From the NCBI GenBank assembly GCA_946538525.1, contig CAMNGU010000015.1, positions 1 through 33,334 of the forward strand: DNA of 33,334 nucleotides, read 5' to 3'. Of this stretch, positions 4,556-32,720 are shown piece by piece. Position 1 is the stretch's first letter. Each line of letters begins with the position of its first letter. Below the pieces are notes generated by a model. The model saw nothing but the letters and a program-made list of their open reading frames with translations. It was not told the origin of the DNA and made no database searches. The position numbers were made by a program, and so were the translations under genes. This DNA comes from an uncultured Lachnospiraceae bacterium. GTDB taxonomy: Bacteria; Bacillota; Clostridia; Lachnospirales; Lachnospiraceae.

Positions 4556-7500
4556 TTATTTATCTAAGAATCTTTTTTTCTTAAGTCCAACAAATACTAT
4601 TCCTGCAAGTGACAGGGTCATAAGAACCACCATCAGTAACATGCATACTGTATCGCCAGTCTTTGCTGAACCTGTAGCTGTGTCATGAGAATCTTTACCA
4701 GTAGTTACATTTGGAGTATTTGGAGCTTCCTTCTTCTCCTTATCTAACATGGTTACATTCTTTACAGCTGTTGTGGAACCATCACTTCCAATAAGCTGTA
4801 CATTTCCATCATTATCCAGCTTGAACTTAATATCTCCTGCAAGCTCATAGCCTTCTGGAGCTTCCTTCTCATGTAATGTATATACAGTATTTCTATTAAG
4901 TCCATAAAGAACAACTTCTTTATCTGTTGAAGCAAACTCGAATACTGTATTGCCCTTATCATCCAAAATTGCAAGCTTAGCTCCTACTAATGGACCGCCC
5001 TTCTCAGCCGTTTTAAGTATACCAATCTTAGTCATGGTATTATCCATTTCAGCCTTTGCAAGGGTAATATAACTTCCACTATCAAGTCTTCTTATCTCAG
5101 ACTCTCTTGTGTAGTTGATGGTTGACATCAGTGTTCCATCACCATTATTGCTTACCTGAACAACTGCATATATAGGCTGAGCTGTATAAAGGATGTTGCT
5201 TATCTGGCTGCTCTTGTCTTCCTCAATCTTATAAATATGAGTTCCAACATTTCTCATAGTATACTTAATACTATTAAATACAGCCTTGCCATCTTTATTG
5301 CTCTTTACAGTTTCTATATCAACAAACATTCCAGTTGCCGGATTATATTCAGAAAGCTTAAATGTAAACATATCCGCTTTCATCTCAGTCTTAATAACTG
5401 AATCATTAATATTCAGAACCTTCTTATCAACCGAAAGTTCCACCTGTCCGATTGCACCATATAGATTGATATAGTCTACATCGAAGGTAGCATTTCCATC
5501 TTTAAATGTTGTTCCATTAGTTACATCCTGAACATTACCTTCCTGAAGGCTTACGATAAGTATTCCATCACGGCCATCTTCAACCTTTGTAGTAATGAAA
5601 TATTCCTTATCATCATATGTATATCCTGGACGCTTATCATCCTTCTCAGCAACTCTATAATGATGAATTCCGACTGAATTCAGATCATATTCTATAGCAG
5701 GAAGTGTGGCGGTTTCACCGACCTTAACCTTGCCATCCTGAACAAGTGTCTCAGAACCATCATCTGCTATCTCATAAACCTCAACGGTAAACTCATTTCC
5801 TACTGCTTCACCCGCTGTAGTTTTATCATCATAAGCCACATCATCATCGGTAATCGCACTCTTCTTTGCAGATATCTCCAGCTGTCCTTTTGCCTCATAA
5901 AGGTTTATGAAGTCAAAAATATCAGTCTGTTCTGAAGTAGTAATAGAAAGCTGTCCATTTCCTAAACTATCATCAACCATTGCAGTAAGAGTAATCTGGG
6001 CTGCATCGTAAGTCACTCCGCCACGCCTGCTTGCCTCATCCGGAATAACCTCTGAAGCCACATACTGATATAAGCCAAGATCATCCTGAGTACTATTCTT
6101 AACATACTGGATGGTATCAAAGGTAATATCACCGTTAATATCACTCTTTCCGTTAAACACTCTTCCAGTTTCTACAAATGAATTGCTATTATAATCATAT
6201 TTACTCTCAACAGCCTTGAAGGAGAATTCGCCATCATCAAGAGTTCTTCCATTAAGTGTCTTAGTTCCAGAAAGATCAAGACTTCCCGTAGCTTCATATT
6301 CATTTATAAATGTTGCAGCTCTATTTGTATCTACTGTATATGTAAGCCCTGTACCTGAAGCACTTGCTCCAGTAACTGCGAAGTCTATACTTCCATCTCC
6401 ATGATCCTTAGCTTCGATAGATAATTCTATCTCAGTATCATCATATGTATATCCTTCATAATAATTTGAAGCATCCGCTCCACTTGGAATTCTTTCTTTA
6501 AGTACATAGTTATGAATTCCAAGATTTGAATCAACACCTGTTGCTGAACCAGTTACCGAGAAGTCAATTGGTGTAAATACAACCTTTCCAGTAGCATCAT
6601 TTGAACCTGTTGAAATCGGAGTGGTTCCCAGCTTACCATCTTTATCCTTCTCAAATATATCAAAGATAAATGTCTTAGTAGTTCTGTCTGATATATCTCT
6701 ACCTAAAAGCTGTTTACTAGCCTCAAATGTAACTGAACCTGTTGCTGAATATAAGTTTATAAAGTCTATAGTATTTGCAGCCTTTCCATCCTTACCAGTA
6801 ACAGTCTTAGTGATGTCCAACTGTCCATTAGAGCCCTCAGCTACTTTTACTACTGCAGTATAGCTGCTTGTATCGTAAGTAACAGAAGGTACCGGATTCT
6901 GAGTTGGAATAAGCTCATGAATCTCATAAGTAAATTCTTTTCCTATATCCGCTTCTGTATAGTTCTGAGTAAGATAAGTAATCTCACCATTTGCATGAAC
7001 TACACCAATAGGAATCGTCTGAGCAGCTGACACATTTCCGCTTCTATCTTTTACAGTTCTTTCAGCCACTATACTAAATTCATTATCAGCAAGAGTTCTT
7101 CCCACAAGAGTTTTAGTTCCTGTAAATGAAACACTTCCTGTAGCTGAATAAAGGTTGATAAAGTTAAAATTATCCGAATCTAAATTTGCTGATACTGACA
7201 GCTGTCCGTTACCCTTATCAGAAACGGTCACATTTACATCATATACTGTAGGATCATATGTATATCCATTTAACTTATAACTTGAATCTACCCCTCTTGG
7301 AATAACTTCCTTAACTCTATAATAATGTGTTCCTATATCACTATAATGATATGTCAGAGTTGGGAACTTAATTGCAGCTGTTGCACTGGCCTTTTCAGGG
7401 TCAAGTGGATCAACTGTCATAGTACTTGCAGCATTAACACCGCATGTATAAACAATCGGCTGTCCACTGGCATCCTGTTTTACGCCCTGTCTTCTACTAT

Positions 7501-10500
7501 CTGAGTACTCAGTTACAGTATACTCGAACTGATCTTCCCCAATAGTATGATTATTTAAAGTCTTTTTACCGCCAAATGTTATATTACCTACTGCATCATA
7601 CTCATTAATAATATCTACTGAAGCTTCTGTACCAGTGCGTCCCTGGTCATCTGTCACTTCTGCAGAAAGAGTTCCATCACCATTATCTGTTACATCAACA
7701 ACAATATTCTTTGGATCAGTATCATATGTAATGCCATCCTTAGTCTTGTTATTTCCATTTACTCCTTCAGGAGTGTTCTCTGTTATCTGATAGTAATGTT
7801 TTCCAACATCACTGATCTCATAATCTATTTTACTAAAGTTGTATGAAGATTCATTTGTTCCATATGAGGAACCACTTATATCCTTAGTCCACTCTTTGCC
7901 AGCAATAGCTGTACTATAAGTATTATCGGTATACTCCTTCATTGTAAGGCTAAATGTGTTGGCAGGAATCTGTCTGTTATACTTTTTCTTTCCTCCAACA
8001 GTTGCACTTCCTTTAGCTTCATAAACATTTACCATAGCCACAGGATCAGCAGATGATACTCCATTTTTACTATACTCTATGCTATCTATCTGAAGCTGAT
8101 TCGAACCATCCTTCGAAGTCTTTACAGTAACATAGATGCTATTGGTATCATATTTGATTCCATCAGCAACATATCCCTTTCTAGAGCTATTATATGCCGC
8201 GCTATCCGGTCTAACCTCTTCTATAATGAAGTATGAAGTTCCTTCCTTAACAATCTTCTGAGTTGAGAATTTTACCTTCTCATCATTATCTGTAGACTTT
8301 GTTTCAACCAGTGTACGCTGTGAAGATGTAGCACTTTGATATGGAATACTTATAAGGTTAAATGTAAAGTCTCCAGGATTTACTGTCTTTCTAACCTTAT
8401 TATCGCCATCCCCATCGCCATCACTATCAGCACCTGATGCCTCAAAATATTCCTTGGCAGTTTCGAGATTTACTTCAACATAATTATCTGTATATGTATT
8501 TATAAGTTCAAACTCAATATCATTATCTACAGGGCTGCCACCATATGTTGTAGAAGTAGCATAAAAATTGAAAGAGTTATTATTTGTTATATAAGCACCA
8601 TTATTTGCTGTTAAGATATAAGCCTTTCCTGGTACATTTGCATTTGTCTCTTCAACTGTATAACGGTCACTGGAATAATGCAGTCCGTGCAGTTTAAATC
8701 CACCAGTTACATTTTCAATTCTAATATCTGAATATGCCTGAGAATCCAGTCTATATTTATCAACAACAGAATTATATACAACAGTTGCCAGAATCTGACT
8801 ATTCAGTTTAACTCGGAAAGTCATACCATCTGGTTTAAGGATTGTTTCTCCTGTATCTGATACTGCATTCTTTAGAATCTGAAGACTAACATTTGCCGAG
8901 TTCTCAAAATTCAGTACATCCTTACCTGATTCATCAATTGTTCCTGTAAATGAATTTTCCTCAGTTCTTGTCTTTGCATCATTTCCAACCATATCAACAA
9001 CTTCGCAAGAGGTTAGATAATCATTATCTTTAACCTCTGTAACCTTATAGGTTGAGTCTGTTGGAATGTTGGAGATTTCCATCTTCTCATCATGTTTCAG
9101 ATAGAATACTGTACCATTTGAATATGTTCCTGTTGTAACTGTTCCATTAGCTTCTGTCTTTGTGAATATAAGCTTTCTGGTTACCAGTTTACCAGTAGAA
9201 TCTGTGATAAGCGCCGCAAATGAGAAGGACTTATCATCATGATTATCATCCGCATTTGTAACCTGCTTACTGATTTCAAGTCTTCCACTCTTAAATTCAT
9301 TTGGAACTTTAACAGCAGATAATCTTCCTGTATCATCTATTACAAGATCTCCACTAACAGAACCTGTGGCAGATACAACTCTACCCTTATCCAGTGTAAG
9401 TGTGTAAACTTCCTTTGTATTCTTGTATCCCTCTGGAACTACAGTCTCCTTCATATAAAGAGTAGTAACATTGGTAGGAAGCTCTATATTTCTAAATAAA
9501 ATATTTCCGTCTAATACATTATCATAAGTTGCTGTACCATCGGCAGAAGTAGAAAGCTCATCCTTCGCACTGGCAAGCACCTTTGTACATGCAGAGTCTG
9601 AGTAAAGCGTAAATTCTGCCCCTGTAAGAAGAGAATCTGTAGCCTTATCTGTCTTATGAATATCTAAGCCAAACTTCTGGTTGGATATCTCTATAACAGG
9701 AATGCTCTGAGTATCATCCAGCTTATTCTTAAGCTTGATCAGTTTATAGGAATCAACTGGAACCTGCGCTGGAACTGAACTATCATCCGGATAAGTTCCC
9801 AGCTCTGAAACATAGTAGTAGATTGGTGTAGCATCCAGAACATATCCGTCAGTATTTTCAACCTCTACCAACTTGTAGTAAGTTTCATTTTCAACCTTTA
9901 AGATAGGCTGAGTATTAACTACTGAATTTGCAATAGAAGCAACGCCATTACTATCTGTTTTAATCTTCTCATAGTTTGGATCACCGGTTGTTACTAACTG
10001 CCAGTTACCACTTACAAGCTTATATAAGTCAAATGTTGCCTCAAGAGAATTACTTACTGCATATTTATCAAACTTATGAAGGTCTATCTGATATACATAA
10101 GCATTAGATCCTTCGCTATACTCATACTTTAGAGTCTTATCAAGGATCTTGTCCTCTTTAGCAGTACAGTCATCCATTTTAGCCACATTCGAATATGTAA
10201 CTAATGTATTTGATGCTCCATCTATTCTGGAAGAATAAACAATACGATATTTATATGATAAATCCTTTATAAGGATAGCCAGCTTAAGTTCATTTGTATC
10301 CGGATCTATACTATGCTGATATTCTTCATTAGTTAGCTCTACCGCATTTACAAAATTATCACCTTTGTATTTATATACTTTTAAGCTGTCAGGTATAAGT
10401 GTCTGATTGGAAGACAACTGGTCAGTAACATTTATGGTATCTCCTACTTTGTAATCTTCCGTTGTTGTTGTTTCATTATCAGTACCAGCATTTACTGTTA

Positions 10501-13500
10501 CGATTTTCTTTGCATTTTCTGACTTTGGATTAACATCAATATAATACTTTGCTGTATACTGATTTGCATTATCTGCTGTTTCATCCAAATGCTTATCTAT
10601 AGCTTTATCTATAGCATATTCAACTGTTGCTTCACCAAGACTAGTCTTCTTCACCTCTCCAGTCTGATCATCTGTTGTAAGCTCGAAAAGACCAGCTGTA
10701 TTCTGAATTGTAGTATCAGTAGTAAATCCTTCCATCTCTACTTCATACTCAATTCGAAGTTTCATAAACATGCCACTTGCATCAGTAAAATCGCCATTTG
10801 TATTATCAAATGTAAAACTGAATCCATTAGATGTATTGTCCGAAGCTGTTACATTGAAGGAAACCTTCGAAGTAGCTCTAGAGTACTTTGCAGCCACACT
10901 CTTTCCAGCGTTGGACCATACAACATTATCTGATTCATCATAGATAGTAAATGAATCGTCTTTATATTTCATTCCTGACAGATTCAAAACATCCGACAGT
11001 TCATATTTCTGATTTACTGCAGCAATATCCTTATTTGGATCAGCCACAATATTATATTTTACATATTCATTATTTGAATCTGGTCCAACAACAGTCTTAT
11101 TAAGTCCAGGACTGTTATTCTTAATACCGATCCAATATGGAGATGACATGGTCTGCATTCTTCCAGTAAATCTAAAGTTAACTGCATTTCCAGCATAAGA
11201 ATTACTACGGAAAGAAGTCCATGTTTCAGCGGAATTAGTATTAACGATATACTCTTCGCCTGAATTCTGAAGAATCTCCGGCATCTTTTCGATCAGCTCA
11301 GGATTGACCTGCATTGTAAATTCAATATCAATATCATAGCCTATCTCTGAACCAGGAATATCATCCAACCAAATGATCATAGCACCCGGAGTATATGTGG
11401 AACCCTTTTTAAACTTAAGCTTTCCATTTGGGTGGTACATATCATTCTTAACAACAAACTGTCCGGCAGAAGTAGCTGAACCATAATAAATTCCGCCCTT
11501 TGGCTTACCACTCCATAAAGAATCACCGGCTTCAAAAGTTCTACTACTCCATGGGTAATAGTCTTTTCTTACAAATGATTCTACACTGGTATCACCATTT
11601 ACCTCGTAAAAGTAACCGGCCCAGGCATTATCAACCACATCCTGTACAGACTGCTCTGTGCTGGTACTGGATATCTTAATAGCATTTGAAACAAGATTAA
11701 CATTATCCATTGATGTCATATTGGAAATATCAACATCATCTGCATCAAAACCAGCAAGCCAGTCAAATACTTCATATTCCTTACCATCATCCAAAGTTAC
11801 TGTATGATATGGGAATAAATCTCTTACCGCAATGTCTTCAAAGCCAGCACTTCCGGCTTCAACACCAACTGTAATCTTATAATCCACATAATAATTTCCA
11901 TCAGATCCGATATAAACTCCATAGTTGGTCTTAGTGGAATTCATAACCTTCTTTATAGGTCTTGTCCAACCAGCTCCAGGACCTGAAGGAACGCCTTCGT
12001 AATCAGTAAACCAAAGAGAAGCACCATTCTTAAATGAGCCAACTGTCTGATCCACTATAGTATCATAATGAATTGTATAAGAAGTTGGAGTAGTATCGTC
12101 TGGCATTATCCAAACAAAGTCATTACTCTCGTTATCTGTGAATACATATTTAAGCGCAAGATCATCATCAAAAGATGTGTAACTTGTACCATATGCCGCA
12201 TTTACTGCATTTACCAATGCACTTGAAAGACCAGCATCTTTTCTAATATTTTGAAGTGCTGTATCGCTTGATGCTGAGCAGAGTCCCTTCAAAGATGCAA
12301 ATGTAGCTGAATCAAGGAGTACCCAATACTGTGTTATATTTTCTCCAGATGGAGTATCTTTTGTAATCCTTTCAACATATGTTGTGGCTGTTGATGTTGT
12401 ATCATATACAACAGAACCTCCAACAAAGTCTGTAATCTCATCCTTAACAGCAGAACCACCAAGGCTATAAGCCCTTCTCTTATTAACATTAATTACATAA
12501 GGAACAACAACCTTCTCTGTTCCGCTCACATTCTTTGTTTTTGTTTCATCGGAAGCATTCTTCATAATCCAGGTATCGCTTCCATCGTACTCCGACTTTA
12601 CTTCCGCTGAAGCTGAAAGAGTTACAGGCTGACCTGTGGCAGAATCTGTATATTCATATGAAGATTTAGCAGTATTCTTATAGCTGTCAGTTCCATTTGC
12701 AGCATCTATCTTAATGCGTTCCTCAAGTGGTACATTTGCTTCATACTCAACTATAAAGTAACCACCACTTTCAATATCTATTCCTGAAATATCAAACTTA
12801 TCACCATTACCAATATCTGCAAGCTTATAATACTTTACTTCCTTAAGAGTCTTATTGGCATTATAATGTGAAACCTTTACTGCATACTTTTCGCCAGCAG
12901 GGCCATCAGGATTCTCATAGGAGTCCTGAATAATATTTAAATGAGAACTATGAGAAAATGTATCAGTAAATGTAATATCAGTTATAGTTGCATCCTGACT
13001 TTTTGGACTTGTCTTAATTGAAAATGAAGTTTTTAAACTACCGTCTGGCTGAGTAATATATCCAGACTGTGTCTTCTGAATAGAAAGGTCACAAAGATCA
13101 ATATTATATATATCTGTACGATCTGACCAAGGTACACGAATCTGAGTCACGCCTGAAGAATCACTCCAGGAACCTTCCATATCAAAATAAGCTACTACTC
13201 TATCATAGTAACCCGGGAAGGATACATACATAACATCATCCTGAATAAAGTATGTACCAATAGCAACCATATTTGAATTATAAAGGGTAATTGGATCAGA
13301 AGCAGATCCTTGATTTCCAATAGAGATATGGTCTGGTAGTACGAAGTAGTAATTAAGTCCTCCAGTAGCCATTTCAGTAATAGATAATTCAAACTCTAAC
13401 TCAAGTCTGAAGTTAACCGCCGGGTCTATTGTGGCACCACTACTTACTTCCGCTCCATCAACAATAATCTTATGAGAATTAAGCTGATCAGAAGTAAACT

Positions 13501-13882
13501 CTGTATAACCATCTAAAATATTTTTAGTCGATGTTTCAGCAGGCATATAAGCAGCTTGTGGCTCCTCATACATCTCAACATCATACTCATTTCCAAATGC
13601 TTCCGCATTGGTTTTATCACGCCTTACAGAACCATCCTCAGGGAAATAATTAATAACATGATCCTCCTGTGGACCTTGCCCTGAATTATCTCCTTTATCC
13701 TCAGGTATTTCTCCAGACACCTCGCCTGTAGATTCTTGTTGCTGAGACGCATCAGTACTGGTTGCCGCAACAACCGAACCTTCACCTTCAGCACGCACTG
13801 GTAGCGATAGACCACCAAGCCCGGACAGGACCATAACAATACTAAGAAGTAGAGCCAGTCCCTTCTTTGCCTTATTCTTCAT
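4556..13882 (-). CDS. Giant secreted, wall-anchored adhesin/pilin-like protein (3108 aa) with SpaA/Cna_B-type and Spy0128/FctA-type domains
   Basis: Signal peptide MKNKAKKGLALLLSIVMVLSGLGGLSLPVRAEG; Shine-Dalgarno GGGGAG upstream of ATG; tandem domains such as VSFTGTKTLVGRTLADNEFS...FINLYSATGS; C-terminal SAKTGD, hydrophobic segment, KKKRFLDK tail. Confidence 0.93.
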   Translation of the reverse strand: MKNKAKKGLALLLSIVMVLSGLGGLSLPVRAEGEGSVVAATSTDASQQQESTGEVSGEIPEDKGDNSGQGPQEDHVINYFPEDGSVRRDKTNAEAFGNEYDVEMYEEPQAAYMPAETSTKNILDGYTEFTSDQLNSHKIIVDGAEVSSGATIDPAVNFRLELEFELSITEMATGGLNYYFVLPDHISIGNQGSASDPITLYNSNMVAIGTYFIQDDVMYVSFPGYYDRVVAYFDMEGSWSDSSGVTQIRVPWSDRTDIYNIDLCDLSIQKTQSGYITQPDGSLKTSFSIKTSPKSQDATITDITFTDTFSHSSHLNIIQDSYENPDGPAGEKYAVKVSHYNANKTLKEVKYYKLADIGNGDKFDISGIDIESGGYFIVEYEANVPLEERIKIDAANGTDSYKNTAKSSYEYTDSATGQPVTLSASAEVKSEYDGSDTWIMKNASDETKTKNVSGTEKVVVPYVINVNKRRAYSLGGSAVKDEITDFVGGSVVYDTTSTATTYVERITKDTPSGENITQYWVLLDSATFASLKGLCSASSDTALQNIRKDAGLSSALVNAVNAAYGTSYTSFDDDLALKYVFTDNESNDFVWIMPDDTTPTSYTIHYDTIVDQTVGSFKNGASLWFTDYEGVPSGPGAGWTRPIKKVMNSTKTNYGVYIGSDGNYYVDYKITVGVEAGSAGFEDIAVRDLFPYHTVTLDDGKEYEVFDWLAGFDADDVDISNMTSMDNVNLVSNAIKISSTSTEQSVQDVVDNAWAGYFYEVNGDTSVESFVRKDYYPWSSRTFEAGDSLWSGKPKGGIYYGSATSAGQFVVKNDMYHPNGKLKFKKGSTYTPGAMIIWLDDIPGSEIGYDIDIEFTMQVNPELIEKMPEILQNSGEEYIVNTNSAETWTSFRSNSYAGNAVNFRFTGRMQTMSSPYWIGIKNNSPGLNKTVVGPDSNNEYVKYNIVADPNKDIAAVNQKYELSDVLNLSGMKYKDDSFTIYDESDNVVWSNAGKSVAAKYSRATSKVSFNVTASDNTSNGFSFTFDNTNGDFTDASGMFMKLRIEYEVEMEGFTTDTTIQNTAGLFELTTDDQTGEVKKTSLGEATVEYAIDKAIDKHLDETADNANQYTAKYYIDVNPKSENAKKIVTVNAGTDNETTTTEDYKVGDTINVTDQLSSNQTLIPDSLKVYKYKGDNFVNAVELTNEEYQHSIDPDTNELKLAILIKDLSYKYRIVYSSRIDGASNTLVTYSNVAKMDDCTAKEDKILDKTLKYEYSEGSNAYVYQIDLHKFDKYAVSNSLEATFDLYKLVSGNWQLVTTGDPNYEKIKTDSNGVASIANSVVNTQPILKVENETYYKLVEVENTDGYVLDATPIYYYVSELGTYPDDSSVPAQVPVDSYKLIKLKNKLDDTQSIPVIEISNQKFGLDIHKTDKATDSLLTGAEFTLYSDSACTKVLASAKDELSTSADGTATYDNVLDGNILFRNIELPTNVTTLYMKETVVPEGYKNTKEVYTLTLDKGRVVSATGSVSGDLVIDDTGRLSAVKVPNEFKSGRLEISKQVTNADDNHDDKSFSFAALITDSTGKLVTRKLIFTKTEANGTVTTGTYSNGTVFYLKHDEKMEISNIPTDSTYKVTEVKDNDYLTSCEVVDMVGNDAKTRTEENSFTGTIDESGKDVLNFENSANVSLQILKNAVSDTGETILKPDGMTFRVKLNSQILATVVYNSVVDKYRLDSQAYSDIRIENVTGGFKLHGLHYSSDRYTVEETNANVPGKAYILTANNGAYITNNNSFNFYATSTTYGGSPVDNDIEFELINTYTDNYVEVNLETAKEYFEASGADSDGDGDGDNKVRKTVNPGDFTFNLISIPYQSATSSQRTLVETKSTDNDEKVKFSTQKIVKEGTSYFIIEEVRPDSAAYNSSRKGYVADGIKYDTNSIYVTVKTSKDGSNQLQIDSIEYSKNGVSSADPVAMVNVYEAKGSATVGGKKKYNRQIPANTFSLTMKEYTDNTYSTAIAGKEWTKDISGSSYGTNESSYNFSKIDYEISDVGKHYYQITENTPEGVNGNNKTKDGITYDTDPKNIVVDVTDNGDGTLSAEVTDDQGRTGTEASVDIINEYDAVGNITFGGKKTLNNHTIGEDQFEYTVTEYSDSRRQGVKQDASGQPIVYTCGVNAASTMTVDPLDPEKASATAAIKFPTLTYHYSDIGTHYYRVKEVIPRGVDSSYKLNGYTYDPTVYDVNVTVSDKGNGQLSVSANLDSDNFNFINLYSATGSVSFTGTKTLVGRTLADNEFSIVAERTVKDRSGNVSAAQTIPIGVVHANGEITYLTQNYTEADIGKEFTYEIHELIPTQNPVPSVTYDTSSYTAVVKVAEGSNGQLDITKTVTGKDGKAANTIDFINLYSATGSVTFEASKQLLGRDISDRTTKTFIFDIFEKDKDGKLGTTPISTGSNDATGKVVFTPIDFSVTGSATGVDSNLGIHNYVLKERIPSGADASNYYEGYTYDDTEIELSIEAKDHGDGSIDFAVTGASASGTGLTYTVDTNRAATFINEYEATGSLDLSGTKTLNGRTLDDGEFSFKAVESKYDYNSNSFVETGRVFNGKSDINGDITFDTIQYVKNSTQDDLGLYQYVASEVIPDEASRRGGVTYDAAQITLTAMVDDSLGNGQLSITTSEQTDIFDFINLYEAKGQLEISAKKSAITDDDVAYDDKTTAGEAVGNEFTVEVYEIADDGSETLVQDGKVKVGETATLPAIEYDLNSVGIHHYRVAEKDDKRPGYTYDDKEYFITTKVEDGRDGILIVSLQEGNVQDVTNGTTFKDGNATFDVDYINLYGAIGQVELSVDKKVLNINDSVIKTEMKADMFTFKLSEYNPATGMFVDIETVKSNKDGKAVFNSIKYTMRNVGTHIYKIEEDKSSQISNILYTAQPIYAVVQVSNNGDGTLMSTINYTRESEIRRLDSGSYITLAKAEMDNTMTKIGILKTAEKGGPLVGAKLAILDDKGNTVFEFASTDKEVVLYGLNRNTVYTLHEKEAPEGYELAGDIKFKLDNDGNVQLIGSDGSTTAVKNVTMLDKEKKEAPNTPNVTTGKDSHDTATGSAKTGDTVCMLLMVVLMTLSLAGIVFVGLKKKRFLDK
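5030..8500 (-). repeat. Eight tandem divergent Spy0128/FctA-like pilin domains (about 130-155 aa each) within the adhesin
   Basis: Recurring pattern [G/S]xK-xLxxR ... GxHxYxVxExxP ... YTYD ... [F/Y]INxY[E/S/G]AxGx. Boundaries approximate. Confidence 0.85.
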
Positions 13883-24498: not shown

Positions 24499-25194
24499 TT
24501 ATTCGCTCACTTCCTCAGCATTTTTGACCACCTCAAAAGACGCATCCTTCAGTCTGATATATTCATAAACATCATCCGGATTATCTTTATAAGTTTCAAA
24601 TACACCTGTAACTATGGCATCCGAACCATCTTCAGGATATTCATCAGGGAACACATGGGATCCATCGTCCCAAATAAATTCAAGTCCCTGCTGACAGCAG
24701 GCCGTAGCATCCTTAACCAGAATAAAGAAATATCTGATACCAGTCGCTTCATCGTAACTGGAATAATACATCCCCTTCATTCTCACGGTCTTACCTACAT
24801 AGCTAGGTGCATCCGCCATCATCTGGTATACAGTCGAATATACCATATTGCTATCCATTACCGTAAGATCAATATCTACATCAGTCTTGGCATCAGCAAT
24901 ATCAGTTACTCCATCTTCTGTACTTACTTCGGTAACAGCTTCAGTTGCCTCAGTTTTATCCTCTGTAGGCGGAACCACAAGAGTCTGTGGCAGTTCTTCT
25001 GTTGTTGCTTCTGTTGAAGCTTCAGCATCCTCTTTCGCCATCTGACTATTTAAGGCTTCCTCTACACTATTACTATCATTTTGATACTTACTGGAGCCGT
25101 CGTCACCTGAACCACAAGCCGTAAGCCCCTGAAGACATACAGTAAGTGCAAGTCCTACACATACCACTCTTTTTAAACTCAACTTTTTCATCAT
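24499..25194 (-). CDS. Zinc-operon-associated lipoprotein with a YcgQ/DUF1980 (TIGR03943)-like C-terminal domain
   Basis: Lipobox LTAC; C-terminus DAPSYVGKTVRMKGMYYSS...YFFILVKDATACCQQGLEFIW...IVTGVFETY. Start trimmed to MMKKLSLKR (AGGAG upstream) from the ORF-track start at 25227. Confidence 0.7.
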   Translation of the reverse strand: MMKKLSLKRVVCVGLALTVCLQGLTACGSGDDGSSKYQNDSNSVEEALNSQMAKEDAEASTEATTEELPQTLVVPPTEDKTEATEAVTEVSTEDGVTDIADAKTDVDIDLTVMDSNMVYSTVYQMMADAPSYVGKTVRMKGMYYSSYDEATGIRYFFILVKDATACCQQGLEFIWDDGSHVFPDEYPEDGSDAIVTGVFETYKDNPDDVYEYIRLKDASFEVVKNAEEVSE

Positions 25195-25235
25195 GACTCC
25201 TAAACTGTCACATTTTGCCCTAAGCATATACAGTA

Positions 25236-26075
25236 TTAATCTAGTTTTATTATGAATTTACCAATAGCCCATGATATTACAAAGAAAACAAAATCCATAG
25301 CAACAATTGTAGCACCAGTTGGAGTATTTGCAAGCATAGATATGATCATTCCCGTCAGCGAACATACTACGGAGAAGATAACCGAAAGAATCACAACCCC
25401 TTTAAAGGTACCACTAAGTCTCATGGCAGCAAGGGCAGGGAATACTATCAGTGCTGATATGAGTAAGCTTCCCACCAGATTCATTCCAAGTACTATAATA
25501 ATTGCGATTATAACTGCAATCAGGAAATTGTACCTTCCGGCCGGTACTCCTGTAGCTCTACAGAAGGTTTCGTCAAATGTTACAGCAAATATTTTATTAT
25601 AGAAGATAATGTATATTGCAATAACTACTGCTGAAAGAGCTATGCAAACAGCCACCTCTGTTTTATCCAGTGTCAGGATTGATTTTGAACCAAACAAGGT
25701 CCCACAAACATCACCTGAAACATTCGCCGATGCAGAAAAAACATTCATTATCATATAACCGAAGGCCAGGGATGTAACCGAAAGCATGGCGATGGCCGCA
25801 TCTCCTTTCATTATAGACTTATTTCCAGTTCTAAGCAGCAGCACTGCCGTAATAATTGTTACTGGCATAACCAGCACAGTGTTACTTACTAGATGAAGCA
25901 CACTGGCTACCGCCATAGCGCCAAATGCCACATGAGACAGACCGTCTCCAATAAAGGAATAGCGTTTCAACACCAGTGTCACTCCCAGAAGTGACGCACA
26001 AAGCGCGATAAGTACACCAACTATAAGTGCGTATATAACAAAATTATACTGAAGGTACATCTGAAGTTTTTCCAT
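25236..26075 (-). CDS. znuB: Metal (probably zinc) ABC transporter permease
   Basis: ABC-3 family: LLGVTLVLKRYSFIGDGLSHVAFGAMAVA and MNLVGSLLISALIVFPALAAMRLSGTFKG. Confidence 0.92.
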   Translation of the reverse strand: MEKLQMYLQYNFVIYALIVGVLIALCASLLGVTLVLKRYSFIGDGLSHVAFGAMAVASVLHLVSNTVLVMPVTIITAVLLLRTGNKSIMKGDAAIAMLSVTSLAFGYMIMNVFSASANVSGDVCGTLFGSKSILTLDKTEVAVCIALSAVVIAIYIIFYNKIFAVTFDETFCRATGVPAGRYNFLIAVIIAIIIVLGMNLVGSLLISALIVFPALAAMRLSGTFKGVVILSVIFSVVCSLTGMIISMLANTPTGATIVAMDFVFFVISWAIGKFIIKLD

Positions 26076-26839
26076 TATTCATTACCTCCTTCAGTTTTCT
26101 TATTATCTTCGGCTTCTTCATCTTCCTCATCTTCTCCATCCCCTCCAATCGAAGAGAAGAACTTATATGCTTCGCTATGAACATATTCTTCAGTCGGGCC
26201 ATAAAACAGCTGCTTATGACCTAAATGAAGAATCTTATTTGAAAATCTTACAGCTGTATTAATATCATGAGATATCATTATTATTGTAACACCTGTATCA
26301 TTCAGGGATTTAACAAGACGGTACAGTTCTTCTGTAACCTTTGGATCAAGTCCTGCAACCGGCTCATCCAGGAGAATAAGCTTTGATGTTGCGCAAAGCG
26401 CTCTGGCAAGAAGAACTCTCTGCTGCTGTCCACCTGAAAGATTTCTAAAGGTCTTTTTTCTAAGTTCCCAGGCATCAAATCTCTTAAGACATTCTTTAGC
26501 CCGTTCTTTTTCTTCTTTATTATAGAAAGGCCTTAAACCAGACTTAGCAAGATTACCAGAAAGTACTATCTCCCACACGCTGGCAGGGAAGTCCTTCTGT
26601 ACCACAGTCTGCTGAGGAAGATATCCAACATCTTTCGCCCCCAGCTCCTCGTTAAATATAATCTCGCCCTTTACAGGCGGAATAAGACGCAGAAGAGTCT
26701 TCATAAGAGTACTCTTTCCTGCGCCATTTTCTCCTACTATACATAGATAGTCGCCCTTCTCAACTACGAAGTTAATATGCTTCGTAAGAGGAATCCCATC
26801 ATATCCGGTTGTTAAATGCTTGGCCTCAATATAATTCAT
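26075..26839 (-). CDS. znuC: Metal (probably zinc) ABC transporter ATP-binding protein
   Basis: Walker A GENGAGKST, signature NLSGGQQQRVLLARAL, Walker B LILLDEP; adjacent to the permease. Confidence 0.92.
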   Translation of the reverse strand: MNYIEAKHLTTGYDGIPLTKHINFVVEKGDYLCIVGENGAGKSTLMKTLLRLIPPVKGEIIFNEELGAKDVGYLPQQTVVQKDFPASVWEIVLSGNLAKSGLRPFYNKEEKERAKECLKRFDAWELRKKTFRNLSGGQQQRVLLARALCATSKLILLDEPVAGLDPKVTEELYRLVKSLNDTGVTIIMISHDINTAVRFSNKILHLGHKQLFYGPTEEYVHSEAYKFFSSIGGDGEDEEDEEAEDNKKTEGGNE

Positions 26840-26895
26840 TTCATCACCTGATTTTCCAAATACATTAAACTTTTTGTTTCACCCAACAAATAATT

Positions 26896-28239
26896 TTACT
26901 CAGATACTCCTAGTGCCTTCTTTAATACACTAAGATTATCTGTCATTATCTTAAGGTAGTTTGCTCCAGCCTCAACATCTGTTGATGTAACTGACTGCAG
27001 TGAATTAAGTGTCAAAATCTCCTGATCCTGTGTCTTTGTATTATTCTTTACTGTCTCAGCAATTCCCTGATCACTCTTCTCAATAGTACAGATTGCTGGA
27101 AGTCCCAACTCATCAACCTTTCCTGAAAGGAAGATAACTGTTTCAAAGCTGGCTTCTGTCTCTGCTGAACATCCAATGAATGCTGCATAGTAATTGATTC
27201 CATAATCATCCACCATATATCTAAATGGGAATCTGTCACCAAAAAGAATTGTATCAACTGTGGCTGCATCTACTGCAGACTGATATTCTGTATCAAGGTC
27301 AGAAAGCTTTTCAATATATGCATCTGCATTAGCCTTATAAGCTGAAGCATTTTCCACATCCTTTGAACCTAATGAATCAGCTATTTTTTCTGTTAATACT
27401 TCAGCATTCTTAAGGGAAAGCCATACATGCTCATCATATTCTATCTCACCATCATCATGGTGATGTCCTTCACCGTCTTCATGATCTTCATGGTCTTCCT
27501 CTTCTGCCTCAGCCACTTCAGCTTCCTCTTCTTCAGCCTCAGCCTCTTCATCAGTAAGTTCCAGTGAACCCTCGTCAGAAAATCCAGGATTATCAGATTC
27601 TTCAGACTGTACTACAGGAGCAGGTGAATTTGGGCTTCCTGAATTTCCAACATTCTCAACTGACGCTGATTCTTCTTTAGATTCATCTGAGCTTTCCTCA
27701 GTTTCCTCAGTCTCGACAGCATCCTCTTCAGAGGCTTCATCCTCTTCCTCTTCGCCTTCCATGCCTTCCACAAGTTCTTCTTCCTTTACGCTATCGCCAA
27801 GCACATCCATAAGGTCAATAACTACCATATCCTTATTTTTAGCTTCTTTCAGCGCATCATCAACCCATTTATCTGACTCTCCGCCAACATAAATGAACAC
27901 ATCACATGTTGAAATTTTTGCAATATCAGCAGCTGTAGGCTGATAGCTGTGAAGATCCACACCGTTATCCAGCAACATTGATACTTCTACTTTATCAGCA
28001 ACACTAGTATCTACGCTGTTTTCGCCCTGGCCCGCAACCTCTCTAACCCAGTCATACTCTGGGAAAATGGTAGCAACAACCTGAAGCTTGTCACTTCCTT
28101 CCTCACTGGCCTCTGCATTTGGAGCAGCATTTCCACAAGCTGCAAGCCCTGCTGTTAATGCTCCAGCAAGTACTACTGAAGCTATTTTCTTAATTTTTTT
28201 TATACTATTATTCTTTAAATCTATATTACTTTTTCTCAT
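26896..28239 (-). CDS. znuA: Zinc ABC transporter substrate-binding lipoprotein with a very long acidic/His-rich loop
   Basis: Lipobox LAAC; LQVVATIFPEYDWVREVAG; DLHSYQPTAADIAKI; loop DHEDHEDGEGHHHDDGEIEYDEHVWLSLKNA; GDRFPFRYMVDDYGINYYAAFIGCS. Confidence 0.93.
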   Translation of the reverse strand: MRKSNIDLKNNSIKKIKKIASVVLAGALTAGLAACGNAAPNAEASEEGSDKLQVVATIFPEYDWVREVAGQGENSVDTSVADKVEVSMLLDNGVDLHSYQPTAADIAKISTCDVFIYVGGESDKWVDDALKEAKNKDMVVIDLMDVLGDSVKEEELVEGMEGEEEEDEASEEDAVETEETEESSDESKEESASVENVGNSGSPNSPAPVVQSEESDNPGFSDEGSLELTDEEAEAEEEEAEVAEAEEEDHEDHEDGEGHHHDDGEIEYDEHVWLSLKNAEVLTEKIADSLGSKDVENASAYKANADAYIEKLSDLDTEYQSAVDAATVDTILFGDRFPFRYMVDDYGINYYAAFIGCSAETEASFETVIFLSGKVDELGLPAICTIEKSDQGIAETVKNNTKTQDQEILTLNSLQSVTSTDVEAGANYLKIMTDNLSVLKKALGVSE

Positions 28240-28321
28240 TTTTCCTCTTTAAATCCTTTTTATTTCTTCTATAAATATTCACTTGTTTGATTATCTTTAT
28301 TAAGACTATTAGATTATCAAC

Positions 28322-28621
28322 TCAATAATTCAGTCTCACTTTGTTCGATATTGGATTATATTTCCTTGCTTCCTCAACACATCCCTGATCAGCCATCACT
28401 ATAAATGGAAGTAATACTGCTGTACATGAAATGATATTAGCTGCTGTACCACATCTTCTAATATTATTGATGCATTCTTCTACTACAGAACATATAGGAC
28501 AATCTTCACCCGAGCAGTCATGATGCCCCATCTCCTTAGCAATAAAAAGCATGGAAATGAACATAACAGCTATAAGTATCAGCGCCAGAAGCAGGCCAAA
28601 CATACTACGCATTTGTCGCAT
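28322..28621 (-). CDS. Small membrane protein with an HHDCSGEDCPIC motif
   Basis: N-terminal hydrophobic helix, then GHHDCSGEDCPICSVVEECINNI and a second hydrophobic segment; 14 nt downstream of zur. Confidence 0.72.
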   Translation of the reverse strand: MRQMRSMFGLLLALILIAVMFISMLFIAKEMGHHDCSGEDCPICSVVEECINNIRRCGTAANIISCTAVLLPFIVMADQGCVEEARKYNPISNKVRLNY

Positions 28622-28634
28622 CTATTCTCGCCCC

Positions 28635-29078
28635 CTACTCATCCTGCAATTCTCTGCACTCTTCACAAAGTCCATAAAGCACTGTTCTTCTTGGATTTAT
28701 CACAAAACTATGTTCTGTCTCTATATGCTTTATCATATCTTCGATTTCTTCACAATGAAGGTGGATCAATTTTCCACATTTATCACATTTGCAGTGGTAG
28801 CAGCTTACAGCTCCATCCATATGATGATCCTTATCAATATATTCATAACAAGCTGAGCTGCTAGAATCCAGATTGTACTTATTTACAATACCTTCTGCCA
28901 CCATCTTATCCAACTGACGGTAAACTGTTGTAACTCCTATCGTTTTACCTTTTTCTTCAAAGTATTTGCAGATATCAGCAACAGTAACATGTTCCCCTGA
29001 TTTACTCAGCAGATAAGCAGTAATCTCAGCTCTCTGTCTTGTTTTATATTGTGACTTGTTATTTTGACTTAAGGTCAT
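28635..29078 (-). CDS. zur: Fur-family regulator, probably Zur
   Basis: ITAYLLSKSGEHVTVADICKYFEEKGKTIGVTTVYRQLDKMVAEGIVNKY; CYHCKCDKCGKLIHLHC and CEEC; heads the zinc transporter operon. Confidence 0.9.
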   Translation of the reverse strand: MTLSQNNKSQYKTRQRAEITAYLLSKSGEHVTVADICKYFEEKGKTIGVTTVYRQLDKMVAEGIVNKYNLDSSSSACYEYIDKDHHMDGAVSCYHCKCDKCGKLIHLHCEEIEDMIKHIETEHSFVINPRRTVLYGLCEECRELQDE

Positions 29079-31427: not shown

Positions 31428-32720
31428 TTACCAGCAGGCGCCATCAGCCCCCAGCCAATAACCATCCACATAGCAGTTAACTGCCATATAGCCATCTCCA
31501 TAGAAGTAATACCAGGAGCCATCTATCTTCTGCCATTGATTAACCGGATACCATCCTGCGCTATCTTCTACCCACCAGCCATAACTATCGCTCTTCCAGC
31601 TAAGAACGCCTTCATAACCTATGGATCCATCCGAGCCAATCCAGTAGCCGTCTCTCCATTCATTTGACGCCATGTAACCACTGCCATCAAAATAGTACCA
31701 CTTACCATCTATCTTCTGCCACTGACCAGATGGATACCAACCTGAGCTGTCCTCTACCCACCAGCCTGAGCCGTTGCTCTTCCAGGAAAGAGTTCCCGAG
31801 TAAGTCTGATTTCCATTTCCATCATACCACTTACCGTTCACCCATTCATTACTATATTTATTCGATGAACCTGACGAAGAACCTGATGCTGATCCAGAAC
31901 CTGTTCCAGCCCCCGAAGAAGAGCCTCCTGAACTAGATCCATAAGGATCTGCAGTCTTATTGATAAGGATATGAAGCGCATAGCTGCTATCCTCACAGAG
32001 ATATGTAAGGAAGTCTCCCTCATCAGAAACCACCTTACTGAGTGAGATTTCATTTCCGCCCTGAAGCTTCACACCATTATTCATTATAATATTATATCCA
32101 CTCTTAACAGCTACAGTTCCATACAAAGGTTCAGCGCTTGCCCCCAGAGACATATCCGCCTTAAGGGTCCCACCATTAATGGTAATATTTTCATCGCATA
32201 CAATAGGATCAACCACAGAATCAACCGTTAGGTTTCCTCCATTTATATTAAGAGGACCACGGCATCTAAGTCCGGCCATTGTTGAATGAACTGTCAGGTT
32301 ACCTTTAATATTCATGGAACCGCCAAATTCATTCTTTACCGCCTGATCATAATCGCTTCCAAGCTCTTCACCCTTAACAATTACATTAGCACCATTCTCT
32401 ATAGTAAGATTAACCACATAAATAGTCTGACGAACAGTCAAGGTGCCAGACCCCTTAATAACTACATCATTACCAAAGATGGCATCCACAGTTTTAGATG
32501 CATCCATATTAATTGTGAGTACATCAACTTTTTCAGGATAATTTCCATTTATCACTCCCGAAAAACTACTATCGGAAGCATTTACCGTTTTACTGGCAGC
32601 TTCAACTCTTTTCACCCCTACCGGAAGCACTCCAACTGCAGCTATTACCATTGCCGTTGAAACCACCGCAGCTATAAGTTTTTTACTCATGCTTTGAATC
32701 AGATTTCTACCCATACCCAT
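31428..32720 (-). CDS. Secreted surface protein: carbohydrate-binding/beta-helix-like N-terminus plus C-terminal cell-wall-binding repeats
   Basis: Signal peptide; GNLTVHSTMAGLRCRGPLNINGGNLTVDSVVDPIVCDENITINGGTLKAD; Ser/Gly linker; SGWYPSGQWQKIDGKWYYFDGSGYMAS repeats. Confidence 0.85.
   Translation of the reverse strand: MGMGRNLIQSMSKKLIAAVVSTAMVIAAVGVLPVGVKRVEAASKTVNASDSSFSGVINGNYPEKVDVLTINMDASKTVDAIFGNDVVIKGSGTLTVRQTIYVVNLTIENGANVIVKGEELGSDYDQAVKNEFGGSMNIKGNLTVHSTMAGLRCRGPLNINGGNLTVDSVVDPIVCDENITINGGTLKADMSLGASAEPLYGTVAVKSGYNIIMNNGVKLQGGNEISLSKVVSDEGDFLTYLCEDSSYALHILINKTADPYGSSSGGSSSGAGTGSGSASGSSSGSSNKYSNEWVNGKWYDGNGNQTYSGTLSWKSNGSGWWVEDSSGWYPSGQWQKIDGKWYYFDGSGYMASNEWRDGYWIGSDGSIGYEGVLSWKSDSYGWWVEDSAGWYPVNQWQKIDGSWYYFYGDGYMAVNCYVDGYWLGADGACW
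31431..31853 (-). repeat. Two cell-wall-binding repeat units (about 61-62 aa) plus a partial third
   Basis: LSWKSNGSGWWVEDSSGWYPSGQWQKIDGKWYYFDGSGYMAS versus LSWKSDSYGWWVEDSAGWYPVNQWQKIDGSWYYFYGDGYMAV. Confidence 0.85.

Follow-up and report, generated by a model that had tools for sequence, protein, structure and literature searches.

A giant Lachnospiraceae surface protein with eight tandem FctA/Spy0128-like units and ten further candidate isopeptide triads

Spy0128, the T-antigen backbone pilin of Streptococcus pyogenes (3B2M, 3GLD, 3GLE), has two domains in each subunit of about 300 residues and is polymerised by its own sortase; these domains are inextensible (PMC12617251). Tandem isopeptide domains are also common in the stalks of fibrillar adhesins (PMC12617251), among them the elongated surface proteins with tandem CLIPPER/DUF11 domains, in which DUF11 is CnaA-like and has a catalytic Asp, and a giant adhesin of Mobiluncus mulieris, 7,651 aa in length, has 33 predicted isopeptide domains, with the C-terminal domain of Spy0128 used as the query (PMC10619420). 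Tandem cross-linked fibrillar adhesins are already known, and the giant protein described here is a well-conserved further example. It shares the FctA family with Spy0128, but has eight FctA units in a chain of 3,108 aa with no sortase nearby, and these eight stalk units are CnaB-like with a Glu, in contrast to DUF11. It resembles the Mobiluncus adhesin in its size and its many tandem, putatively cross-linked Ig-like domains; however, the latter is from an actinobacterium and has a thioester tip and ester-bond domains, whereas Pfam searches for thioester and ester-bond domains (TIE protein) found none in our protein (E up to 1) or in three of its orthologues (E up to 0.1), and five Lys-Asp-Asn domains come first instead. 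The original prediction, made from the DNA sequence, held that eight such domains in one chain are unusual, which is only partly right in view of the 33 predicted in Mobiluncus.

The window, by which we mean the entire 33,334-nucleotide stretch analysed, is from an uncultured Lachnospiraceae bacterium, and the open reading frame at 4556–13882 on its minus strand encodes a giant surface protein of about 19 domains. We consider it probable (roughly 87%) that this protein is a fibrillar adhesin that is secreted, anchored to the cell wall and equipped with about 18 self-cross-linking domains. Its features are listed below; FctA units 1–8 are assigned from Pfam, alignments and predicted strands, and unit 8 also from the orthologue alignment.

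4556..13882, minus strand: giant surface protein ORF, 3,108 aa (full-length orthologue at locus L046, 48–51% identity)
13790..13882, minus strand: aa 1–31, signal-peptide-like N-terminus MKNKAKKGLALLLSIVMVLSGLGGLSLPVRA (read from the sequence)
13097..13549, minus strand: aa 112–262, conserved N-terminal region that has no triad and is presumably the outermost (binding) domain (orthologue conservation; putative function)
10097..13096, minus strand: aa 263–1262, five CnaA-like candidate isopeptide domains with triads K270-D307-N403, K441-D481-N619, K651-D688-N883, K929-D964-N1061 and K1097-D1154-N1232 (orthologue conservation, predicted strands, Foldseek)
9677..10096, minus strand: aa 1263–1402, SpaA-like domain, K1270-E1340-N1401 (Pfam, orthologues)
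9296..9676, minus strand: aa 1403–1529, SpaA-like domain, K1410-E1479-N1528 (Pfam, orthologues)
8894..9295, minus strand: aa 1530–1663, DUF7601, K1539-E1616-N1661 (Pfam, E 5.7e-14)
8495..8893, minus strand: aa 1664–1796, unnamed candidate CnaB-like domain, K1671-E1745-N1795 (orthologues)
8012..8494, minus strand: FctA unit 1, K1810-E1889-N1952
7592..8011, minus strand: FctA unit 2, K1966-E2035-N2093
7139..7591, minus strand: FctA unit 3, K2107-E2192-N2243
6740..7138, minus strand: FctA unit 4, K2257-E2323-N2376
6287..6739, minus strand: FctA unit 5, K2390-E2463-N2527
5888..6286, minus strand: FctA unit 6, K2541-E2611-N2660
5450..5887, minus strand: FctA unit 7, K2674-E2746-N2806
5030..5449, minus strand: FctA unit 8, K2820-E2888-N2948 (Asn of DNTMTK)
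4733..5029, minus strand: aa 2952–3050, SpaA domain of SpyCatcher/CnaB2 type, K2957-E3005-D3047, a Lys-Asp pair (aligned to SpyCatcher/FbaB CnaB2 structures)
4559..4669, minus strand: aa 3072–3108, sorting-signal-like tail with AKTGD, a hydrophobic stretch and KKKRFLDK (sequence)

The eight FctA units lie consecutively on the minus strand from 8494 down to 5030. A Pfam search matches FctA (PF12892) to the protein in eight stretches with 229.1 bits (E 1.9e-68), and every unit exceeds the family cut-off of 22.1 bits when scored singly. The prediction of eight tandem units at 5030–8500, each with Lys, Glu and Asn, had the coordinates correct and agrees with both Pfam and the alignments. Its details need small corrections: the early first-strand Lys is present throughout, that of unit 1 being the Lys of ETAKEY, which precedes an acidic insertion, and the Glu is followed by the expected [I/R]-P motif except in units 7 (AEKDD) and 8 (EEDKS). 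Placement of the unit 8 Asn in DNTMTK was sound, as Asn2948 is the aligned residue and is Asn in 15/15 orthologues; a loss of the bond in this unit, suggested by a Thr at the Asn column when the eight units are aligned by themselves, is overturned by the orthologue alignments. Over all the units compared for junction spacing, the Lys-to-Asn span varies from 104 to 186 residues.

The triads are well conserved. Among 57 units from seven genes, with a mean pairwise identity of 29%, just three of 240 columns are invariant, and these are exactly the K, E and N columns (the median frequency of the top residue in well-filled columns is 0.37); because these are the sole invariant columns across such divergent units, their conservation is not due to chance. 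An alignment of 16 genes contains 120 units, four of which are DUF7601 domains, and all three residues are retained in each of the remaining 116 FctA units. When the unit profile is aligned to 3B2M the invariant columns fall on K36, E117 and N168 of Spy0128, and 3GLD, the E117A mutant, carries Ala at the Glu column; a phmmer search of the PDB with one unit returned nothing relevant, although the profile searches did match. In the predicted structure the FctA block has pLDDT values of 78–92, all 24 triad residues are in predicted beta strands that follow the right order, at equivalent topological places in the eight units, and the best Foldseek match is 8F70, a tandem group A Streptococcus pilin (probability 1.00), with 3B2M, 3GLD and 3GLE also retrieved. 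The predicted Spy0128-type nature of the triads is thus supported by the columns, the mutant and the strand placement. The two AlphaFold models were built from shallow alignments (12 and 15 rows) and have low pTM (0.35 and 0.47), and so do not bear on relative domain placement or rod shape. The bonds are candidates from sequence, and some DUF11 domains, a related isopeptide type, have none (PMC12617251), such that the triads could be relics in domains that fold as ordinary Ig-like spacers, with most bonds never forming in the cell. We regard this as highly improbable, since only a chemistry that is in use readily explains why K, E and N are the sole invariant columns at about 29% identity, and mutated triads would be expected among 116 units, where none is seen.

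Although eight is the right number of FctA units, it undercounts the domains of this type, as ten more conserved triads lie beyond the predicted interval (five Lys-Asp-Asn, four Lys-Glu-Asn and one Lys-Glu-Asp). These span nearly all of the remaining chain, bring the total to about 18 candidate bonds, and have residues that are almost all invariant among 15 orthologues. In the five CnaA-like domains the Lys and Asn are present in 15/15 orthologues and the Asp in 15/15 or 14/15, and 14 of the 15 triad residues are in predicted strands. The CnaA-like region of the window protein has no Pfam match, and the N-terminal part of the protein has no sequence-level match in the PDB or Pfam; profile searches of both databases with the N-terminal half likewise failed to assign it confidently to a family. 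Foldseek matches the region to PrgB, antigen I/II C-domains and MSCRAMMs; the likeness to these and to the MSCRAMM N-domains is in the fold of the N-terminal 1,150 residues and the Lys-Asp-Asn triad of the CnaA-like domains, but identities are 8–13% and whole-model TM-scores are low. Of the Lys-Glu-Asn domains, DUF7601 is a predicted isopeptide family of that type (PMC12617251, Table 1), and the unnamed CnaB-like domain has its Lys in 14/15, Glu in 15/15 and Asn in 14/15 orthologues. CnaB2, the parent of SpyCatcher/SpyTag from the S. pyogenes fibronectin-binding protein, has a Lys-Glu-Asp set that is retained in the C-terminal SpaA domain, with all three residues invariant in 15/15 orthologues; this SpaA domain is one of 18 candidate domains, at the wall-proximal end.

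The junctions between FctA units are of constant length. The Asn of each unit and the Lys of the unit that follows are spaced exactly 14 residues apart at 100/100 junctions, and in an alignment-free count a spacing of 14 occurs 99 times, compared with 27–56 for each other spacing from 5 to 30. This exact spacing from one predicted weld to the next is an unusual and new detail of the stalk. The 14 residues may simply be inherited from the duplicated ancestral unit and have no mechanical meaning, a somewhat unlikely reading to which the origin of every unit by duplication and the similarly short junctions (12–19 residues) of non-orthologous tandem FctA proteins lend weight; yet units only about 29% identical, with spans of 104–186, have gained or lost residues at 0/100 junctions, and a different giant FctA protein (L036) keeps mostly 15. 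As to how the stalk could work, the N-terminal domain would be held outward by about 18 beta-sandwich domains in series. In every one of these domains a Lys and an Asn (an Asp in the last domain) would spontaneously form one intramolecular isopeptide bond, with help from a buried Glu or, in the five N-terminal domains, an Asp. Within the FctA units the bond would link the first and last strands and tie both domain ends, and pulling force would pass from weld to weld through the 14-residue junctions, skipping about nine-tenths of the residues; we therefore propose that the stalk, presumably rigid and inextensible, could not unfold and would be hard for proteases to cut. More tentatively, and with somewhat less than even odds, we speculate that it is a measured, load-bypassing rod, with FctA inserts of free length and fixed 14-residue junctions on the force path, whose reach evolves through the gain or loss of complete welded units (3 to 10), with no change in the stiffness or geometry of the junctions, and that the N-terminal Lys-Asp-Asn domains represent isopeptide families not yet in Pfam, forming an extensible section ahead of the inextensible one.

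The gene is solitary, with a PTS/phosphofructokinase operon on one side and uvrA/uvrB on the other, and no sortase or signal-peptidase-like gene was found in the window; these neighbours and the lack of a window sortase rule out a pilus operon around it. The C-terminal tail reads AKTGD in place of the canonical LPXTG, and most orthologues with intact C-termini retain TGD in an xTGD, hydrophobic and basic arrangement, suggesting that a sortase may anchor the protein to the wall; the N-terminal domain could be an adhesive tip, judging by its position and a weak fold resemblance. The genome assembly (80% complete) contains only two sortases, on contigs C19 and C3, and C3 holds a Spy0128-like pilus operon of a backbone pilin, a basal pilin, a very large putative tip protein and a sortase. 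Since FctA domains are those of Spy0128 backbone pilins and a pilus sortase is encoded in the genome, the giant protein might be part of a sortase-assembled pilus, as a pilin or tip protein that is either polymerised or otherwise built in, in the manner of Spy0128 or its ancillary proteins. We think this very unlikely, as the gene stands by itself, the C3 operon is already supplied with backbone, basal and putative tip proteins beside its sortase, and the AKTGD tail is unlike the pilin tail IPTGI. There is also no dedicated sortase in the gene cluster, and at about 19 domains the protein far exceeds the one to four of a small backbone-pilin subunit; its stalk is made of repeated domains, as in fibrillar adhesins. 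A stalk is therefore favoured over a pilin, because the window lacks a sortase and a separate pilus operon is present on another contig, which, with the 3,108-aa chain, upholds the original preference for a stalk over a polymerised pilus.

Orthologues of about 2,200–3,300 aa with 3–10 FctA units are present in rumen and gut Lachnospiraceae, and one is carried by Eubacterium ruminantium ATCC 17233, which can be cultured. No relative was recovered when contigs were scanned with the window protein by itself, whereas 18 loci were recovered when the orthologue alignment served as the query. Orthology is unit for unit (8/8) with two other species at 33–51% identity, as opposed to 17–40% among the units of one gene, which supports the old duplications originally proposed. 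The unit order common to these two species rules out an assembly artefact.

As naturally occurring tandem arrays that have a precise junction register and vary in copy number, the units offer material for force spectroscopy and for making covalent protein rods. The survey of PMC12617251 used AlphaFold DB models of up to 1,280 residues, so that full-length proteins of this size were beyond its reach, and we suggest that structure-based surveys with this cap overlook the longest cross-linked adhesins. The self-welding chemistry of pilins, mostly studied in pathogens, would here be extended to a widespread gene family of rumen and gut Lachnospiraceae, in a setting where firm attachment is important amid flow and proteolysis.

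The interval for which eight tandem FctA/Spy0128-like domains had been predicted lies within a single open reading frame:

4556-13882, minus strand: open reading frame of the window protein, 3,108 aa

Pfam assigns to this chain eight FctA domains (of the Spy0128-like isopeptide family), three SpaA domains and one DUF7601 domain, and NCBIfam recognises a streptococcal pilin isopeptide linkage domain in six stretches. The protein ends with AKTGD, a hydrophobic stretch and KKK, resembling a sorting signal without LPXTG; xTGD is present in most relatives whose C-terminus is intact. The neighbouring genes encode a fructose-type PTS and a phosphofructokinase on one side; on the other lie uvrA/uvrB. 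Elsewhere in the window, we note by eye a zinc-uptake-like cluster (24499-29078: permease, ATPase, Fur-family-like regulator, and a binding protein whose long insert is acidic/His-rich) and a secreted protein carrying a series of W/Y-rich repeats of cell-wall-binding-like type in its C-terminal part (31428-32720).

Each unit of the window protein was aligned, together with its flanks, with those from 15 related genes. The resulting set of 120 contains 116 FctA units and four DUF7601 domains caught by the profile. Lys, Glu and Asn occupy three fixed columns in all 116 FctA units, as proposed for each unit originally, and the single apparent exception among the 120 is a DUF7601 domain. When the set is cut down to 57 units (mean pairwise identity 28.6%), these are the only three invariant columns. 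Unit 8 seemed to depart from the triad when aligned alone, and this was ruled out by the full-length alignment, where Asn2948, the DNTMTK residue proposed for this unit, is Asn in 15/15 sequences. The assignment to the Spy0128 type also holds: in a search of the PDB, the unit profile places the triad columns on 3B2M chain residues 23, 104 and 155, which with an offset of 13 are K36, E117 and N168 of Spy0128, and this numbering is fixed by the deposited mutant 3GLD (titled E117A), which has Ala exactly at the Glu column. An AlphaFold2 model of the eight-unit stretch (12-sequence alignment; mean pLDDT 82.9) has 54% of its residues in strand and matches group A Streptococcus T-antigen pilins and Spy0128 in Foldseek with probability 1.00; its pTM is 0.35, and the orientation between units is therefore not predicted. 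All 24 triad residues fall in predicted strands (block pLDDT 78-92), with Lys in the first long strand, Glu at or beside the end of a middle strand, and Asn in the last.

The spacing between units is uniform. At 100/100 junctions in 16 genes, the Asn of an FctA unit and the Lys of the following one lie exactly 14 residues apart, and the Lys-Asn span inside the units ranges from 104 to 186 residues. When Asn-Lys pairs are counted in eight genes without an alignment, spacing 14 occurs 99 times, and each of the other spacings in the range 5-30 occurs 27-56 times. Non-orthologous tandem FctA proteins have junctions of 12-19 residues, one of them mostly 15. Spy0128 is cited as inextensible in PMC12617251, and from this and the topology we infer that about 1,030 of the 1,139 residues from K1810 to N2948 would be shielded from load.

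Beyond these units, residues conserved without or almost without exception in 15 full-length sequences group into further candidate triads of fitting type and spacing (aa positions):

270-307-403: Lys-Asp-Asn, N-terminal half
441-481-619: Lys-Asp-Asn, N-terminal half
651-688-883: Lys-Asp-Asn, N-terminal half
929-964-1061: Lys-Asp-Asn, N-terminal half
1097-1154-1232: Lys-Asp-Asn, N-terminal half
1270-1340-1401: Lys-Glu-Asn
1410-1479-1528: Lys-Glu-Asn
1539-1616-1661: Lys-Glu-Asn
1671-1745-1795: Lys-Glu-Asn
2957-3005-3047: Lys-Glu-Asp

By the table in PMC12617251, Lys-Asp-Asn triads are CnaA-like, and those with Lys-Glu-Asn or Lys-Glu-Asp are CnaB-like. Outside the Pfam domains, order, spacing and fold suggest the grouping of these residues as triads. 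In predicted fold, the N-terminal half is similar to PrgB, antigen I/II C-domains (including SspB, 2WZA, with two isopeptide bonds) and MSCRAMM head domains, and 14/15 candidate triad residues there are in predicted strands. A Pfam search recognised no family in the N-terminal half of the window protein, and four relatives match GBS104-like_Ig weakly in theirs. Five candidate Lys-Asp-Asn domains lie in a row at 10097-13096 (aa 263-1262) without a Pfam match in the window protein, and these may represent unnamed isopeptide domain families. Overall, about 18 of some 19 domains have a candidate internal bond, the exception being the N-terminal region (aa 112-262). Several other junctions along the chain are also fixed, at 38, 36, 38, 9, 11, 10 and 9 residues, each in 15/15. 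CnaA-like domains are reported to extend partly under force (PMC12617251), which suggests that the N-terminal third would be more compliant than the FctA stalk.

No sortase was found in the window, and the genome assembly, which is 80% complete and of which the window is contig 15, has two, both elsewhere. Another contig of this genome (C3; locus L042, 5064-8498 and onward) carries one sortase inside a Spy0128-like pilus operon, together with a signal-peptidase-like protein, a 427-aa FctA pilin ending IPTGI, a basal pilin and, as putative tip protein, a chain of 1,832 aa or more; roles apart from sortase and FctA were read by eye. Because the window lacks a sortase and the pilus operon is separate, a separate, monomeric stalk is the better reading of the window protein, in line with the original preference for a stalk over a polymerised pilus.

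The best match of each window unit is the same-numbered unit in two other species (8/8 in the full-length orthologue L046, allowing for an extra DUF7601 match, and 8/8 in L060), versus 17-40% identity between units inside the window gene; the duplications are therefore old, as had been suggested. Other relatives have 3 to 10 FctA copies, some with more recent repeats in which alternate units are up to 59% identical. In a Coprococcus assembly, contig JAGBHU010000042.1 encodes three adhesin paralogues (L053, L058 and L063) with 3, 4 and 8 FctA units, and so unlike stalk lengths in one genome. Five loci (L034, L035, L036, L038 and L041) encode non-orthologous giant FctA proteins of 3,019-3,611 aa, and in some of them FctA apparently alternates with other domains whose length is nearly constant (spacings of about 120 or 150 from Asn to Lys). 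The nearest relatives with a name are Lachnospiraceae, among them several assemblies labelled as rumen or gut, together with Eubacterium ruminantium and E. uniforme. FctA domains are found in 29/37 genomes of the same genus, in 31/61 relatives in all, and in 6/200 genomes sampled across the phylum.

Fibrillar adhesins with tandem isopeptide domains are established (PMC12617251), and the window protein is another member of this kind, which includes a Mobiluncus adhesin with 33 predicted isopeptide domains and ester-bond domains (PMC10619420). Our literature search found no paper on these Lachnospiraceae proteins. What appears to be new is the exact 14-residue register of the FctA junctions, the candidate bonds covering nearly the whole chain, the Lys-Asp-Asn domains without a name, and the wide occurrence of such proteins in gut and rumen Lachnospiraceae.
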